Assembly (NCBI GenBank): GCA_024687165.1
Contig: JAILEY010000032.1
Location: forward strand, 1-63,602
Direction: 5' to 3'
DNA: 63,602 bases
Source: Treponema sp.
Lineage (GTDB): Bacteria; Spirochaetota; Spirochaetia; Treponematales; Treponemataceae
A model generated the notes under the pieces. That model was given only the letters and a program-made list of their open reading frames with translations. It had not been told where the DNA came from and made no database searches. The position numbers were made by a program, and so were the translations under genes. This document shows positions 1-54,559 of the stretch, in pieces. The first letter of the stretch is position 1. Every line of letters starts with the position of its first letter.

Positions 1-10
1 CTGTATAAAT

Positions 11-44
11 TTATACACAAATTTCGTCTAAAAATTTATACACA
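11..44 (+). other. two DnaA-box-like 9-mers
   Basis: TTATACACA occurs at 11-19 and again at 36-44, same orientation, 25 bp apart. Both fit the DnaA-box pattern TTATNCACA and lie in very AT-rich DNA at the window edge. They could be the flank of an origin, DnaA-regulated sites, or chance in AT-rich sequence. What lies further upstream is not visible. Confidence 0.35.
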
Positions 45-33722: not shown

Positions 33723-35603
33723 TTGAATATCATTTTATTTTATACAGTCATATTTCTTATTGAGGCATTTTTTTTCACATCTTATGTTTTTCTTTCACGC
33801 CTGATTTTAAAAAACAAACAGGACCAGCTGAGGTTCTCTTTAAGAAAAGGATCATACATCATTGCATTAGTCAGCATATTTTTTTCAGCGCTGATTTATT
33901 TCATAATTGATTTCAACAGTCTGTATAATGTCGTTGTTGCATTTCATAACAAGAAGCCAAGTTTCTTCGTAAAATTTTATTCAATGCAGACTCTGATTTT
34001 TTTCATTGCAACAGGAATCTCATTTCATTCAAAACATGTAGAAAACACGCACAAAAGATTGTATGGAATCCCGGTGCTGTATATCAATCTTTCACTGCTT
34101 CTGATAAACATCGTAAACTGGGCACTTCAGCGCTACAACTTTACAATATATGAATCAATATGGATTACAATCACAAGTCCTACAAAAGGAGCTGATTCAA
34201 CTGCACTCTCATCATTTATTCTTGATGCACTGATTCCATATCTGATTGAATTTTTCTGCTTTCTGATTTTCTCAATTCCACTATGTCTCTATCTCATAAA
34301 AAAGTATAACTTCAACTACTTCAAAGAAAATCTTGAATTCAAATTTAAAACTAAAACTTACTCATACAATCTTGTAAAATGCGTTTCAGTAATTCTTTTT
34401 ATTTTTTCTGCAGTTCAAACTTACCTGTGTATCAAGCCGCATAATTATATTCCAATTCTGATTAAAGAAAATTTTTCAGACGCAGAACATTCAGTTTTTT
34501 ACAAAAAAAATTATGTTGATACAAAAACAACAAAAGTTACTTTCCCTCAGAAAAAGCAGAATCTGATTCTCATATTCCTTGAGTCAATGGAATCAACTTA
34601 CACAGATATTTCTAACGGTGGTCTTTTTGATGAAAGCCTGATTCCAAATTTAACAAGACTGGGAAAAGAAAATATAAACTTCAGCAGCACAGAATGTTTT
34701 GGCGGAGGAAATGATCTAGTTGGTGCGGACTGTACAATTGCAGCGCTTCTTACAAAAATGAGCGGAACTCCATATACTTTCTCAAGCCAGAAGATTCCTT
34801 CAAAGACAGGAAAATTTCTTTCCAATATAAAAACACTCACAGACCATCTTGCAGAACAAAACTACAATCAGCGTTTTCTTTTTGGAAGCGACAAAGAATT
34901 TGCATCCCGCGACATGCTTCTTGAAAAACACGGAAATGTAGAAATCCACGATATAAACTGGTACAAAGAAAATAAAAAACTTCCGGAAAACTACAACGTA
35001 TTCTGGGGCTTTGAAGACAATAAACTTTACAAATTCGCAAAAGAAGAAGCAGAAGAACTTGGAAATAAAAAAGAGCCTTTCTTTCTTGGACTTCTTACTG
35101 TAGACACACACTACCCTAAAGGATTTTTATGCGACCAGTGTGACAAAAAAAATTATGACCCGAGACATCCGATGAAAACAATCATTCCGTGCAGCGACAG
35201 GCAGTTAAATGATTTCATCAGCTGGGCAAAAGAACAGAAATGGTACGAAAACACAACAATAGTGATTACAGGGGATCACCTTTTCATGCAGCCTGTAAAC
35301 GGATTCAACACCTTTGATGAACTTTCAGTATCAGAATTTGTTGCACCGTTAAGGAAAAGACAATGGGTAGATATTTTCATCAACAGCAGGGCTAAACCTG
35401 TAAAAGAAAAATTCAGAAGCTTTTCTGCATACGACATTTACCCGAGCATACTTGCAAGTCTCGGGTGTAAAATTGAAGGAGACAGACTCGGCTTTGGAGT
35501 TTCACTTTTTTCTGACAAGAAAACGCTTTATGAAATCTACGGAGAGAAAATCATAAACGATGAGCTTTCTAAAAAAACAATTGAATATGAAAGCCTCTAT
35601 TAA
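33723..35603 (+). CDS. LtaS/OpgB-like membrane sulfatase-fold transferase
   Basis: A 626-residue protein of the LTA synthase/phosphoglycerol transferase family. Five or so TM helices lie in residues 1-235, then an extracytoplasmic alkaline-phosphatase-fold domain. Metal and catalytic positions are visible: Glu in IFLESMESTYTD, a nucleophile Thr in GADCTIAALLTKMSG, Asp in FLFGSDKEFASRD and ITGDHLF near residue 517. It probably moves phosphoglycerol-type groups onto a glycan or lipid; the acceptor is unknown. The start is TTG, seven bases after AGGA. Confidence 0.82.
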   Translation: MNIILFYTVIFLIEAFFFTSYVFLSRLILKNKQDQLRFSLRKGSYIIALVSIFFSALIYFIIDFNSLYNVVVAFHNKKPSFFVKFYSMQTLIFFIATGISFHSKHVENTHKRLYGIPVLYINLSLLLINIVNWALQRYNFTIYESIWITITSPTKGADSTALSSFILDALIPYLIEFFCFLIFSIPLCLYLIKKYNFNYFKENLEFKFKTKTYSYNLVKCVSVILFIFSAVQTYLCIKPHNYIPILIKENFSDAEHSVFYKKNYVDTKTTKVTFPQKKQNLILIFLESMESTYTDISNGGLFDESLIPNLTRLGKENINFSSTECFGGGNDLVGADCTIAALLTKMSGTPYTFSSQKIPSKTGKFLSNIKTLTDHLAEQNYNQRFLFGSDKEFASRDMLLEKHGNVEIHDINWYKENKKLPENYNVFWGFEDNKLYKFAKEEAEELGNKKEPFFLGLLTVDTHYPKGFLCDQCDKKNYDPRHPMKTIIPCSDRQLNDFISWAKEQKWYENTTIVITGDHLFMQPVNGFNTFDELSVSEFVAPLRKRQWVDIFINSRAKPVKEKFRSFSAYDIYPSILASLGCKIEGDRLGFGVSLFSDKKTLYEIYGEKIINDELSKKTIEYESLY

Positions 35604-36433
35604 CAATCAATAACACCGCCGAACGGAATACTGAAATTTCTGCAAAGAGTTTCGTATTCCCTGCGGTCTTCTTCCCCATTCAAACTTGTAACAAAAAATG
35701 ACATATCTTCCGGCAGTTCACCAGAAGATTCTTTACAGTCTTTTATTGCAGGAAGAATTTCCAGCGCATGATTTGCAACACCATCCCGGCTGTCAACAAC
35801 AAAAACTTTGCAATTCATTTTTGAAGAAAAATAATCTTCAATCTCCTTTGCCATGTGAGTAAAATGAGTGCAACCCAAAATGATTGTATCACAGCCAAGA
35901 CTACAAAAATAATCAACAGCAGGCTTTACCGCAGCAATTTTTTCTTCCTGTGAAGCAACAAAAAATCTATGTTCAATAAAAGAAATTAAATCCGGATCAC
36001 CACGCTTATAGACTTCACAATCCGAGGCGTAATCTTCTATGAGCTTATCCGAATATTTATGATTAACAGAAGCATTTGTTGCAAGAAAACCGATTTTTCT
36101 ATTAACTGAAACTTTTGCAGCAAGTTTGATGGCAGGAACAGTCCCGACAATCGGAAGATCCTTATAGATTTTTCTAAGCGTATCAAGAGCCGTTACAGAA
36201 ATTGTGTTGCATGCAATAATTATTGACCGCGGATTCCACTTTTTAATTATTGTAGAAATTACACTTGAAGAACATTCAACGATCTCTTCAAAAGTTTTTT
36301 CACCATATGGAAAATGAACTGTATCTCCCAGATAAACACACTTACTTTCCGGACTCTTTTTCTTTAATTCAAGCATATATGGAATTCCACCGGTTCCACT
36401 GTCCAGAAATGCAAAATCAATCCTATTGCACAT
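35600..36433 (-). CDS. murI: glutamate racemase
   Basis: MurI (277 residues) supplies D-glutamate for peptidoglycan. The two catalytic cysteines are in IIIACNTISV (about 77) and IILGCTHFTHM (about 191), with the FLDSGTGG opening and VGTVPAIK. It overlaps the convergent transferase gene by 4 bp (TTAA gives both stops). The promoter lies six bases from the ATG, so it is probably leaderless; only a GAG triplet lies upstream. Confidence 0.93.
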   Translation of the reverse strand: MCNRIDFAFLDSGTGGIPYMLELKKKSPESKCVYLGDTVHFPYGEKTFEEIVECSSSVISTIIKKWNPRSIIIACNTISVTALDTLRKIYKDLPIVGTVPAIKLAAKVSVNRKIGFLATNASVNHKYSDKLIEDYASDCEVYKRGDPDLISFIEHRFFVASQEEKIAAVKPAVDYFCSLGCDTIILGCTHFTHMAKEIEDYFSSKMNCKVFVVDSRDGVANHALEILPAIKDCKESSGELPEDMSFFVTSLNGEEDRREYETLCRNFSIPFGGVIDC

Positions 36434-36468
36434 CGCTCAATTTTATTCATTTGACTAAAAGTAATCAA
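36434..36468 (-). promoter_or_regulatory. promoter, predicted leaderless start of murI
   Basis: Minus-strand TTGATT (36468-36463), 17 bp, TAAAAT (36445-36440), six bases, ATG at 36433. It interlocks with the opposite promoter at 36451-36479. Confidence 0.75.
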
Positions 36469-36485
36469 TATCTTAAATTATAAGC
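36451..36485 (+). promoter_or_regulatory. promoter, predicted leaderless start of the pentapeptide-repeat gene
   Basis: TTGACT (36451-36456), 17 bp, TAAATT (36474-36479), six bases, ATG at 36486. It shares 36451-36468 with the murI promoter on the other strand. Confidence 0.75.
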
Positions 36486-37166
36486 ATGTTTATAACCAGC
36501 AAATGTCAGGAACCGGGTTGCACAAAAAATTCTCTTACAGTTTTCAGCGGGAACGGATATATTACAGAAGCTCCCGGATTTTGTCTTGAACACTCAGAAA
36601 ATAAAGAAGAAGCAGAAAAATCAATTTTAGATTATATAAACAGAAACGATAAAATCATCGGGCTTTCTGCATGCGGAATAACGTTCGATGGAATAGAATT
36701 AAAAAATAAAAAATTCTACGGATGCAATTTTCAGCACTGCAATTTCAAAAATGTTCACTCTGACAATCTTAGAATCAAAATGTGCATGTTTGATTTTTCT
36801 ACATTCACCGACTGCGATTTTCTTGAAAGTTATTTTCAGTTCAATTCACTTGCCGGCTCAAAACTTGTACATGTAATTTTTACGGGAAGTGATCTGGTGC
36901 ATAACAACTTCAACGGAATAACATCGTACCAGTCAAGCTTTGACAACAGTGATCTTTATAACTCAAGCTTCATCAAGGCTGTACTTCTAAACACATCAAT
37001 GAAAAACTGCAATCTGAAAAAAACGATTTTCTATGAATCTGTACGCAATAATGTTTCATTCAAACTTTCAAATACTAAAGAGGCACTTGTTGACAGAAAT
37101 AAAGCTTCAAAAATTGAACTGATCAGCACTGATGAAACAGAAGAAGACAAAGGAAGTCCACTATGA
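36486..37166 (+). CDS. pentapeptide-repeat protein with N-terminal Cys motif
   Basis: A 226-residue cytosolic protein. The first 35 residues carry C7-x4-C12 and a later CLEH, suggestive of a small metal site. Residues about 65-200 are irregular pentapeptide repeats (FYGCNFQHCNFKN, LVHNNFNGI, LYNSSFIKAVL), predicted to fold as a right-handed beta-helix. Function unknown. It overlaps the next MBL gene by 4 bp (ATGA). Confidence 0.7.
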   Translation: MFITSKCQEPGCTKNSLTVFSGNGYITEAPGFCLEHSENKEEAEKSILDYINRNDKIIGLSACGITFDGIELKNKKFYGCNFQHCNFKNVHSDNLRIKMCMFDFSTFTDCDFLESYFQFNSLAGSKLVHVIFTGSDLVHNNFNGITSYQSSFDNSDLYNSSFIKAVLLNTSMKNCNLKKTIFYESVRNNVSFKLSNTKEALVDRNKASKIELISTDETEEDKGSPL

Positions 37167-37729
37167 AAATTTATTTCCACATGTGTTTTGAAGGTTTTAC
37201 AAACAGTTACACAATCCTTAATGATAACCCGAACTCAATGGAAGCAATAATTGTTGATCCGGGTAAAATTACAAACAGAATCATTTCTCAGATTGAAGAA
37301 GGCGGCTATAAGCTCAAGTCAGTTTTGATTACACACAATCACAGGCATCACATTCAGGGATTAAAGACACTTTCTAAAATTTACACTCCTACAATTTACG
37401 GAGCAGATTTTGAAAATTACGAAGGAATGAAATCTGTAATTCTTTCAGGAGACGGCATTACAACAATCGGAGGACTGAACGTTGAATACTATTCTGTTCC
37501 AGGTCACTCACCGGACAGTATGGTCTACAAAATTGAAGACGTAATGTTCACGGGAGATACACTTCTTGCCGGAATCACCGGAAAAACTTCAAGTCAGTAT
37601 GCCCAGAAAATGCTCTGCAGTAAAATTCAGGATAAGCTTTTTTCACTTCCGGGAGAGACAATAATTTTTCCAGGACATGGAACACCAACAACAATTGAAA
37701 GTGAAAAACAGTACAATCTGGATTTTTAA
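37163..37729 (+). CDS. MBL-fold protein with an altered metal motif
   Basis: A 188-residue glyoxalase II/YcbL-size MBL protein. The signature is H58-N-H60-R-H62-H63: the Asp expected at position 62 of HxHxDH is His. Other ligands are present: VPGHSPDS, FTGDTLL and IFPGHGTPTT. Loss of the Asp should weaken the second metal site, so substrate and activity are uncertain. It is translationally coupled to the pentapeptide-repeat gene. Confidence 0.75.
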   Translation: MKIYFHMCFEGFTNSYTILNDNPNSMEAIIVDPGKITNRIISQIEEGGYKLKSVLITHNHRHHIQGLKTLSKIYTPTIYGADFENYEGMKSVILSGDGITTIGGLNVEYYSVPGHSPDSMVYKIEDVMFTGDTLLAGITGKTSSQYAQKMLCSKIQDKLFSLPGETIIFPGHGTPTTIESEKQYNLDF

Positions 37730-52641: not shown

Positions 52642-53592
52642 TTATTCAACTGTAATGTTATTTTCGCGGATCAGTCTGTCACGTTCACGCTGCTCTTTTA
52701 CAGAAAGACCATCACGTCTGTTTACAAATTTACCGATTCTCTCAAAAGCAAAATGTGCTTCCTCAAGATATTCATCGGCCATCTGAAACATGTGCATCAT
52801 TTTTGGAACGATATCAACTGTGTTTTCCACACCGATACTATCAAGCTTTTCTTCAAGAGCTTTTATCTGGCACACAAGAAATTCATCTTCACCAGCCTGA
52901 ATATAAACTTCAGGGAAAGAATCATAACATTCTTTTTCAGCCTTAAGAGGAGAAACAAGATAAGATACAATATCAACAGTTTTTGCATACTGCGAAGAAG
53001 CATAACAGATATCATCAAAAGAAAGCACAGAGTCCTTTAACTTTCTTGGAAGCTCATATTCTGCATCTTCAGAAAAATCAAGCCACGGAGAAAACATTAT
53101 AAACTTTGAAATTTTCTGTCTGTCAGTTTCCTTAAGTCCAAGTATAAATGAAAAAGCAATATTTGCACCGCTTCCATCCCCCGCAACAATTATTTCTTCA
53201 GCATCAAGTTTTTTGAAAACAGCAGCAATATCATCTGTTGCAGCAGGATACTTATGTTCAGGAGCAAGACGGAATTCAGGAACGATTACTTTGCTTGAAG
53301 TAGAATTTGCAATAAGTGAACAAAAACTCTTCCAGCTTTCTCTTGAGCCGCCGACAAAAGATCCTCCGTGTACATAAAGAAGAATCCTGTCAGAAGAATA
53401 AACTTCCGGAATAAGAATGTCACAATCAACGCCGCCGATCGTTTCAGAAATTCGTTCAACTCTGTTCGGTGTAAATTCAGCGTAAAATGTTTTTTCAATT
53501 TTTTTTCTGAATGAGTCAACGTCTGATTTAGATGTAAAAATTGTAGTCTTTATTTTTTTTACAGCAGAGCGTCTGTCGTTTCTAAGTTCCAT
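52642..53592 (-). CDS. HSL-type alpha/beta hydrolase with altered nucleophile motif
   Basis: A 316-residue protein of the hormone-sensitive-lipase branch. The oxyanion motif is VHGGSFVGG (75-77 HGG) and FRLAPEHKYPAATDD is family-typical. The nucleophile elbow reads GDGSGA (138-143) where GDSAGG is expected, placing Gly140 at the Ser position; Ser141 is one residue off. The acid (QAGEDEFL) and His (MMHMF) are present. It may be a pseudoenzyme or use Ser141. It is first in the rel operon and predicted leaderless. Confidence 0.75.
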   Translation of the reverse strand: MELRNDRRSAVKKIKTTIFTSKSDVDSFRKKIEKTFYAEFTPNRVERISETIGGVDCDILIPEVYSSDRILLYVHGGSFVGGSRESWKSFCSLIANSTSSKVIVPEFRLAPEHKYPAATDDIAAVFKKLDAEEIIVAGDGSGANIAFSFILGLKETDRQKISKFIMFSPWLDFSEDAEYELPRKLKDSVLSFDDICYASSQYAKTVDIVSYLVSPLKAEKECYDSFPEVYIQAGEDEFLVCQIKALEEKLDSIGVENTVDIVPKMMHMFQMADEYLEEAHFAFERIGKFVNRRDGLSVKEQRERDRLIRENNITVE

Positions 53593-53605
53593 AAAAGAGA
53601 TTATA
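53593..53605 (-). promoter_or_regulatory. -10 box, predicted leaderless start of the hydrolase operon
   Basis: Perfect TATAAT on the minus strand (53605-53600), seven bases, ATG at 53592. The -35 is poor. It is divergent from the metA promoter within a 46-bp gap. Confidence 0.6.
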
Positions 53606-53626
53606 GCAAAAAGAATTTTTATTTGC

Positions 53627-53638
53627 TACAATACCCCC
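53627..53638 (+). promoter_or_regulatory. -10 box, predicted leaderless start of metA
   Basis: TACAAT (53627-53632), six bases, ATG at 53639. No ribosome site; the -35 is weak. Confidence 0.55.
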
Positions 53639-54559
53639 ATGCCGATTAAAATTGATTCAGACTTACCAGCACGAACTACTCTTGAAAATGAAAATATCTT
53701 CGTGATGACACACGAACGCGCAGTTGCACAGGATATTCGTCCTCTTAAAATTGCAATTGTAAATTTGATGCCTACAAAAGAAGTTACTGAAACTCAGCTT
53801 TTGAGACTTCTTTCAAACACACCGCTTCAAATCGATATAACTCTTGTGCGCATGGAAGGTCATATTTCAAAAAACACAAACCAGAGTCATCTCGACAGAT
53901 TTTATAAATCCTCAGAAGAAATTCTCAATGAAAAATTTGACGGCATGATAATCACCGGTGCACCAGTTGAACAGATTCCGTTTGAAGACGTTGATTACTG
54001 GGACGACCTTTGCAAAATCATGGACTACGCAAAAAAGAATGTTTTCTGTTCTTTATACATCTGCTGGGGAGCAATGGCAGGGCTCTATCATTTTTACGGA
54101 ATAGACAAGCACGTTGTAAAAACAAAATTTTCCGGCCTTTATTATTCAAAGCTCAAGGATTTTAAAGAACCATTAATGCGTGGCTTTGATGATTTTTTTC
54201 CTGTTCCGACAAGCCGCTACACATACATCGATCCAAAGGATGTAGAAAAAAATTCAGATCTTCTTCTTCTTGCTGAAAGTGCTGAAACTGGAACTACAAT
54301 CGTAAAATCAAAAGACAACCGCAGCATTTTCATGACGGGGCATCTTGAATACGACATTGACACTCTTGCAAATGAATACAAGCGCGACATTGCAAAAGGA
54401 ATTAAGGCAAATCTTCCGGTAAATTATTTTACAGATGACAATCCAGATCTTCCTATTCATTCAAAATGGAGAAGCACTGCACACCTCTTCTTTTCGAACT
54501 GGCTCAACTATTACGTTTACCAGGCAACTCCTTACAGAATTGAAAATATTGATAATTAA
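53639..54559 (+). CDS. metA: homoserine O-acetyltransferase (MetA family)
   Basis: A 306-residue MetA-family acyltransferase that activates homoserine for methionine synthesis. The nucleophile Cys is in YICWGAMAGLYHFYGI (about 142), and the His/Glu dyad lies in FMTGHLEYD (about 235-240). Residue 111 is Glu (ITGAPVEQ), the residue linked to acetyl-CoA use, whereas succinyl-CoA enzymes have Gly. O-acetylhomoserine is therefore the predicted product. Palindromic element copy 2 begins at its stop codon. Confidence 0.92.
   Translation: MPIKIDSDLPARTTLENENIFVMTHERAVAQDIRPLKIAIVNLMPTKEVTETQLLRLLSNTPLQIDITLVRMEGHISKNTNQSHLDRFYKSSEEILNEKFDGMIITGAPVEQIPFEDVDYWDDLCKIMDYAKKNVFCSLYICWGAMAGLYHFYGIDKHVVKTKFSGLYYSKLKDFKEPLMRGFDDFFPVPTSRYTYIDPKDVEKNSDLLLLAESAETGTTIVKSKDNRSIFMTGHLEYDIDTLANEYKRDIAKGIKANLPVNYFTDDNPDLPIHSKWRSTAHLFFSNWLNYYVYQATPYRIENIDN

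Follow-up and report, generated by a model that had tools for sequence, protein, structure and literature searches.

The 52 bp that separate, ATG to ATG, murI on the minus strand from a divergent pentapeptide-repeat gene on the plus strand in a Treponema draft genome are very probably occupied by a compact pair of σ70-type promoters, back to back and interlocked, with each transcript predicted to begin at its start codon or within 1-2 nt of it. The arrangement is probably real and functional, and comparison with relatives shows that both promoters have been selected as one rigid unit of 40 bp, which predates the gene presently on its left.

Two promoters in a 52-bp gap

The features concerned, in a window (the whole stretch of DNA that was analysed) of 63,602 nucleotides, are as follows, promoter elements and transcription start sites (TSSs) being predictions.

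35600..36433, minus strand: murI, glutamate racemase (TIGR00067, 170.6 bits, above cut-off); predicted leaderless, TSS 36433
36440..36445, minus strand: -10 of the murI promoter, TAAAAT, ending 6 nt ahead of the ATG
36451..36456, plus strand: -35 for the pentapeptide gene, TTGACT, within the murI promoter's spacer; TTTGACTAA conserved
36463..36468, minus strand: -35 of the murI promoter, TTGATT, with a 17-nt spacer and itself within the spacer for the pentapeptide gene
36474..36479, plus strand: -10 for the pentapeptide gene, TAAATT, ending 6 nt ahead of the ATG
36440..36479, not stranded: interlocked 40-bp core, the outer -10 to -10 distance being fixed at 40 bp in relatives
36486..37166, plus strand: pentapeptide-repeat protein, 226 aa (PF13599, 53.7 bits); predicted leaderless, TSS 36486
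37163..37729, plus strand: MBL-fold hydrolase (PF00753), overlapping the stop codon of the pentapeptide gene

The original prediction had both promoters fitting the gap between these divergent genes, and a mechanical promoter scan recovers them, with the layout TTGACT, 17 nt, TAAATT, 6 nt, ATG on the plus strand and TTGATT, 17 nt, TAAAAT, 6 nt, ATG on the minus strand; both are conserved in relatives. Its 52 bp between the divergent ATGs agree with what was found, and its placing of each -10 six bases from its own ATG is exact on both strands. Its statement that the -35 elements overlap needs amendment: 6 bp (36457-36462) intervene between the hexamers, each of which lies within the spacer of the other promoter, and the overlap is between the promoters as wholes (36440-36468 and 36451-36479), which have 18 bp in common, as divergent promoters with overlapping σ70-type core elements do. 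The match to consensus is 9/12 for each, i.e. of moderate strength.

Taken singly, and in this genome alone, neither promoter is above chance, and the case rests on comparison. Between 35000 and 38500 there are 12 promoter-like sites, with 10.2 +/- 3.4 in shuffles, as might be the case if the elements were mere look-alikes of -10 and -35 hexamers in AT-rich DNA with the true promoters elsewhere. That such coincidence is the explanation is nevertheless highly improbable, given the fixed register conserved in dozens of genomes, the site at 36468 being the sole minus-strand match in that scan from the murI start to 38264, and the divergent orientation, which leaves neither gene open to read-through from an upstream operon.

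With regard to translation, no SD-like motif is evident in the 52-bp gap on either strand, as for leaderless genes, and for both genes exactly 6 nt intervene between the end of TANNNT and the start codon. This is the register of the TA-led genes of bacteria, in which the first T of TANNNT is described as lying some 12 bp ahead of the start codon (Zheng et al. 2011, PMC3160421); unlike single TA-led genes, two here face outward over one interlocked core. The predicted TSSs, 36433 and 36486, are 53 bp apart.

No regulator gene adjoins the gap, glutamate racemase being on the left and the right operon comprising the pentapeptide-repeat protein and the MBL-fold hydrolase; the latter overlaps the stop codon of the former, and a common transcript is expected. 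No RNA genes were found in the window. In an alignment of 15 pentapeptide proteins, the N-terminus (window 36486-36600) has C7, C12, C33 and H36 invariant, and these look like a small metal-binding site preceding the solenoid. Inhibition of gyrase by MurI is reported, and Qnr and MfpA are gyrase-binding pentapeptide proteins (PMC10886550). A link between the two present genes via DNA gyrase was considered: the predicted model (pLDDT 85) matches AlbG, MfpA and Qnr in fold. The TM-scores are low, ~0.2-0.45 over the query, and were taken as generic for the fold; the ancestral partner was also not murI alone, and the link was rejected.

A rigid unit in relatives

The relatives compared are Treponema-like gut bacteria, those matches that bear names being uncultured Treponema, Spirochaetales etc., several from rumen or faeces. 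Two loci were left out before register was counted, L020 (in genome G053, with a 1178-bp GC-rich insert) and L056 (a duplicate of L030), and 13 further genomes of the same genus, in which the genes are apart or on broken contigs, were excluded from register and distance counts and viewed separately. In what remained, 38 of 45 same-genus loci have the right -10 at exactly 6 nt from the ATG (41 of 45 at 5-7 nt); of the 44 in which the left -10 could be scored, 26 have it at exactly 6 nt and 36 at 5-7 nt. Beyond the genus, a -10 lies 5-7 nt from the ATG in 21/25 on the left and 11/16 on the right.

The original prediction had proposed conservation of spacing in related genomes as a check, and 17 of 44 same-genus pairs have an outer -10 to -10 distance of exactly 40 bp. 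It is 41 bp in 1, 33 bp in 5 and 25 bp in 4; in another 9 (9/36 of those with both -10s) it is 52-162 bp, and the promoters are no longer interlocked. In the 8 others the distance is undefined, a -10 being absent from the range on one side, and 3 of these retain the 40-bp core with an altered leader or start, which would bring the 17 to 20. Within the 40-bp class the ATG gap is anywhere between 50 and 56 bp: the promoters stay fixed, with start codons displaced by 1-3 nt. The comparison bears out the claim of interlocked leaderless promoters.

The rigidity would follow from there being two functional promoters with overlapping 17-bp spacers: no base between the -10s is outside both promoters, and hence a 17-bp spacer is disrupted by almost every indel. 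Conservation does extend beyond the hexamers, to T at -36, AA at -29/-28 and CAAT at -20 to -17 (CAAT, reverse complement ATTG, being present in at least 15 of 18 at each position), and by eye many members have an inverted repeat, TTGA-N10-TCAA. These bases outside the hexamers raise the possibility that TTTGACTAA...CAATA is the operator of a factor controlling both genes, such that the conservation would not stem from promoters alone, and persistence of CAATA in G021, which has lost the left -10, is in keeping with this. A regulator site is nonetheless fairly unlikely, for most of the conserved positions belong to the -35 or -10 hexamers of either strand; the pattern TTTGACTAA..CAAT..TA is essentially confined to the locus (on-locus in 16 of 57 genomes, elsewhere 2, with 19 matches for the reversed control), so there is no regulon; and TTTGACTAA is generally lost, with the -10 staying, once the pentapeptide gene leaves the pair.

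The last point comes from 11 loci in which the pentapeptide gene is away from both of its partners (L034, L051, L054, L141-L146, L148 and L149). The -10 is kept 5-7 nt from the ATG in 10 of them, and TTTGACTAA is lost in 10 and kept in 1. The one retaining it is that of G021 (L034), where there is no left partner, the right promoter is intact and the left -10 is destroyed. In G053 (L020/L038), a 1178-bp GC-rich (60%) glycosyltransferase-like insert lies between murI and the pentapeptide gene and stops just before TTTGACTAA; it may be a recent insertion or an assembly chimera.

Exchange of the left gene

In many relatives ~350 bp separate murI from the pentapeptide gene, with a divergent pair retained. 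The stretch (14 loci duplicating a genome were left out before its analysis) is an ORF of 92-100 aa, rich in cysteine (MCWKCG...C..C...C..C) and in the same direction as murI. An RNA gene in these gaps was considered and rejected, since a search of 51 loci found neither tRNA nor tmRNA, one of 18 loci gave no Rfam match, and the place is taken by the Cys-rich ORF. The ORF has no significant Pfam or NCBIfam match, sub-threshold hits being mostly to zinc-finger families. Present in 81 of 97 genomes searched, it is absent from the 97%-complete draft considered here. Its location upstream of murI is seen order-wide (L003 to L098, e.g. L007), with repeated loss or relocation.

On a tree of MurI plus the pentapeptide protein (50 rows, quick method), the state of the left partner changes at least 10 times, with 5 of the changes forced by well-supported branches. 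The unit is older than the current left gene, the Cys-rich ORF upstream of murI being the ancestral one. A trace of the exchange can be discerned in the present murI. Its protein starts MCNRID, those of the two closest relatives start MKNVID and MKNVVD, and the gene upstream of murI in those two begins ATG TGC. The ATG TGC of murI here is probably the retained start of the lost Cys-rich gene, and the simplest reading is that an in-frame deletion brought murI under that gene's promoter and gave it that gene's first two codons. Where the Cys-rich gene has moved into an apparent operon (L150, L151, L152, L154 and L156), an SD has been gained and the -10 register lost in 5/5, which also speaks for leaderless promoters in the interlocked pair, three of the five looking like close relatives.

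Predicted leaderless starts elsewhere in the genome

A sample of 360,593 bases, comprising the window and 20 other contigs, whole or partial, yielded 259 genes with a simple gene caller. In 41 of them exactly 6 nt lie between the end of TANNNT and the leftmost start, the other 29 offsets giving 1-19; unlike the single promoters, this register does exceed chance, and with this proportion leaderless mRNA would be ordinary in this genome. The register is found for 21/82 divergent genes, 12/58 first genes of a run and 8/119 others. An SD-like motif accompanies 1 of the 41 register genes versus 89 of the other 218, a scarcity that is partly mechanical beside a -10, with 7/54 having an SD at control offsets. 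A second genome (G043, 800 kb) has a weaker 6-nt peak, 45/642 against 8-33 at other offsets. In another spirochaete, Leptospira interrogans, ~440 mapped leaderless mRNAs are reported (PMC5243855); no start-site map for Treponema was found in the literature searched.

Pairs with the register on both sides number 3 of the 41 divergent pairs in the 360-kb sample, and 2.7 are expected from single sides ((21/82)^2 x 41); there is no excess of them over the single-side expectation. The corresponding 3/91 in G043 is not to be taken as a rate, since the crude gene caller missed a known pair there. Another tight divergent pair in the present genome (L103, 3956-3993) has a 38-bp gap with TAATTT and TATAAT each 6 nt from an ATG.

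A second module, upstream of metA

Elsewhere in the window a further gap of 46 bp (53593-53638) had been described as similar with weaker -35s, and this has stood: the right -10 is 6 nt and the left 7 nt from the ATG, and the -35s are weak.

52642..53592, minus strand: alpha/beta hydrolase (PF07859), the left gene; -10 TATAAT 7 nt from the ATG
53600..53632, not stranded: candidate second module, ATTATAGCAAAAAGAATTTTTATTTGCTACAAT, two back-to-back TGC-extended -10s; outer distance 33 bp
53639..54559, plus strand: metA, homoserine acyltransferase (PF04204, 439.8 bits), the right gene; -10 TACAAT 6 nt from the ATG

By the comparative counts, metA/hydrolase is a second case, sharper than the murI gap. 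The hydrolase is divergent at 27 of 30 metA loci; a spacing of exactly 33 bp between the -10s is seen in 25 of these 27 and holds across gaps of 44-255 bp, whether metA has an SD or not. Genus-wide, TATAGCA-N(2..30)-TGCTATA has 58 hits in 56 genomes, with 41 for N15 (33 bp), 6 for N16, 2 for N14 and 9 for all other spacings, against 28 over all spacings for the reversed control; the N15 matches are largely orthologues of two recurrent 33-bp loci and not 41 independent cases. These are metA/hydrolase and a glycosyltransferase-like/helicase-like pair, the latter named from N-terminal letters alone. A looser N15 pattern is matched 80 times, in 49 of 56 genomes, versus 5 for its control. Of the 30 pattern loci that were read, most separate divergent genes whose start codons are within a few nt of the respective -10s.

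It is possible, if rather doubtful, that the genus uses opposed leaderless promoters locked at 25, 33 or 40 bp, with each TGC-extended -10 in the 33-bp form (metA/hydrolase, the glycosyltransferase-like/helicase-like pair and others) doubling as a partial -35 (TAGCAA, 3/6) of the other. If true, one inverted repeat would constitute two complete promoters, and the double use would account for the order 33 >> 34 > 32, which parallels the σ70 spacer preference of 17, 18 and 16.

Occupancy, competition and the question of a switch

The footprint of RNA polymerase extends from about -55 to +20. From this and the geometry, occupancy of the two promoters of the murI gap would overlap, with polymerase occupying one at a time. 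The promoters would be expected to compete given strength in one or both of them, and to fire independently if neither is strong.

A proposal that goes beyond this is the built-in either/or switch of the original prediction, in which selection is for mutual occlusion itself and the two genes are expressed to the exclusion of one another. The overlapping occupancy that geometry would impose and the rigid maintenance of the 40-bp unit are as it would have them, and there are precedents with RNA polymerase described as a switch in plasmid pLS20 Pc/Pr (PMC4207663) and EcoRV (PMC5333194). In both, overlapping polymerase-binding elements are such that the two promoters cannot be bound together. A switch is quite unlikely here all the same, and the proposal is not supported: the left partner has been exchanged repeatedly (Cys-rich ORF to murI), at least 10 times; pairs have been split (11 genomes) or widened (9 of 36, to 52-162 bp); both-side leaderless pairs, 3/41, are not above the 2.7 expected; rigidity is already accounted for by the two overlapping 17-bp spacers; and -10 and -35 are of moderate strength, 9/12 for each promoter. 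For five bidirectional E. coli promoters basal activity is described as too low for competition, which makes competition negligible in those cases, and repression of the opposite direction as arising only once one direction had been strengthened (Warman et al. 2026, PMC12825309). In the accounts given of them, pLS20 and EcoRV additionally require a regulator. Compaction in a lineage that tolerates leaderless starts well, rather than selection for a switch, would most likely be the origin of the tight gap.

In relation to known systems, the gap resembles the EcoRV and CfrBI restriction-modification systems and pLS20 Pc/Pr in having divergent promoters with overlapping polymerase-binding elements. 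Unlike EcoRV with its C protein and pLS20 with Rco, no dedicated regulator gene adjoins it; unlike EcoRV, where the C transcript is described as not leaderless, both transcripts are predicted to be leaderless; and, unlike either, the left gene was swapped. It thus fits the class of overlapping divergent promoters save for the missing regulator; the ancestral Cys-rich left gene, itself without significant family, may have been such a regulator, now lost. With the bidirectional promoters of Warman and Grainger there is the parallel of one short sequence serving both strands with steric exclusion expected (PMC12825309, PMC10268837). Those are described as having a shared pseudo-symmetrical -10 and TSSs 7-25 bp apart, most commonly 18 (PMC10268837), unlike the separate -10s here and the predicted TSSs 53 bp apart (~46 bp at metA), and the present arrangement falls outside that definition. 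No description of interlocked leaderless promoter pairs was found in the open-licence literature searched.

Implications

The arrangement would extend the biology of divergent promoters to ones that are both leaderless and interlocked, and in spirochaetes. Its history points to small deletions as a means by which a cell-wall gene can come under the promoter of another gene, something that may have happened several times independently. The orthologous loci are in effect natural mutants, in which the partner has been swapped, the promoter on one side destroyed, the gap widened or a leader gained, and with them competition between polymerases at overlapping promoters, usually the subject of one-site studies, may be read over dozens of genomes.
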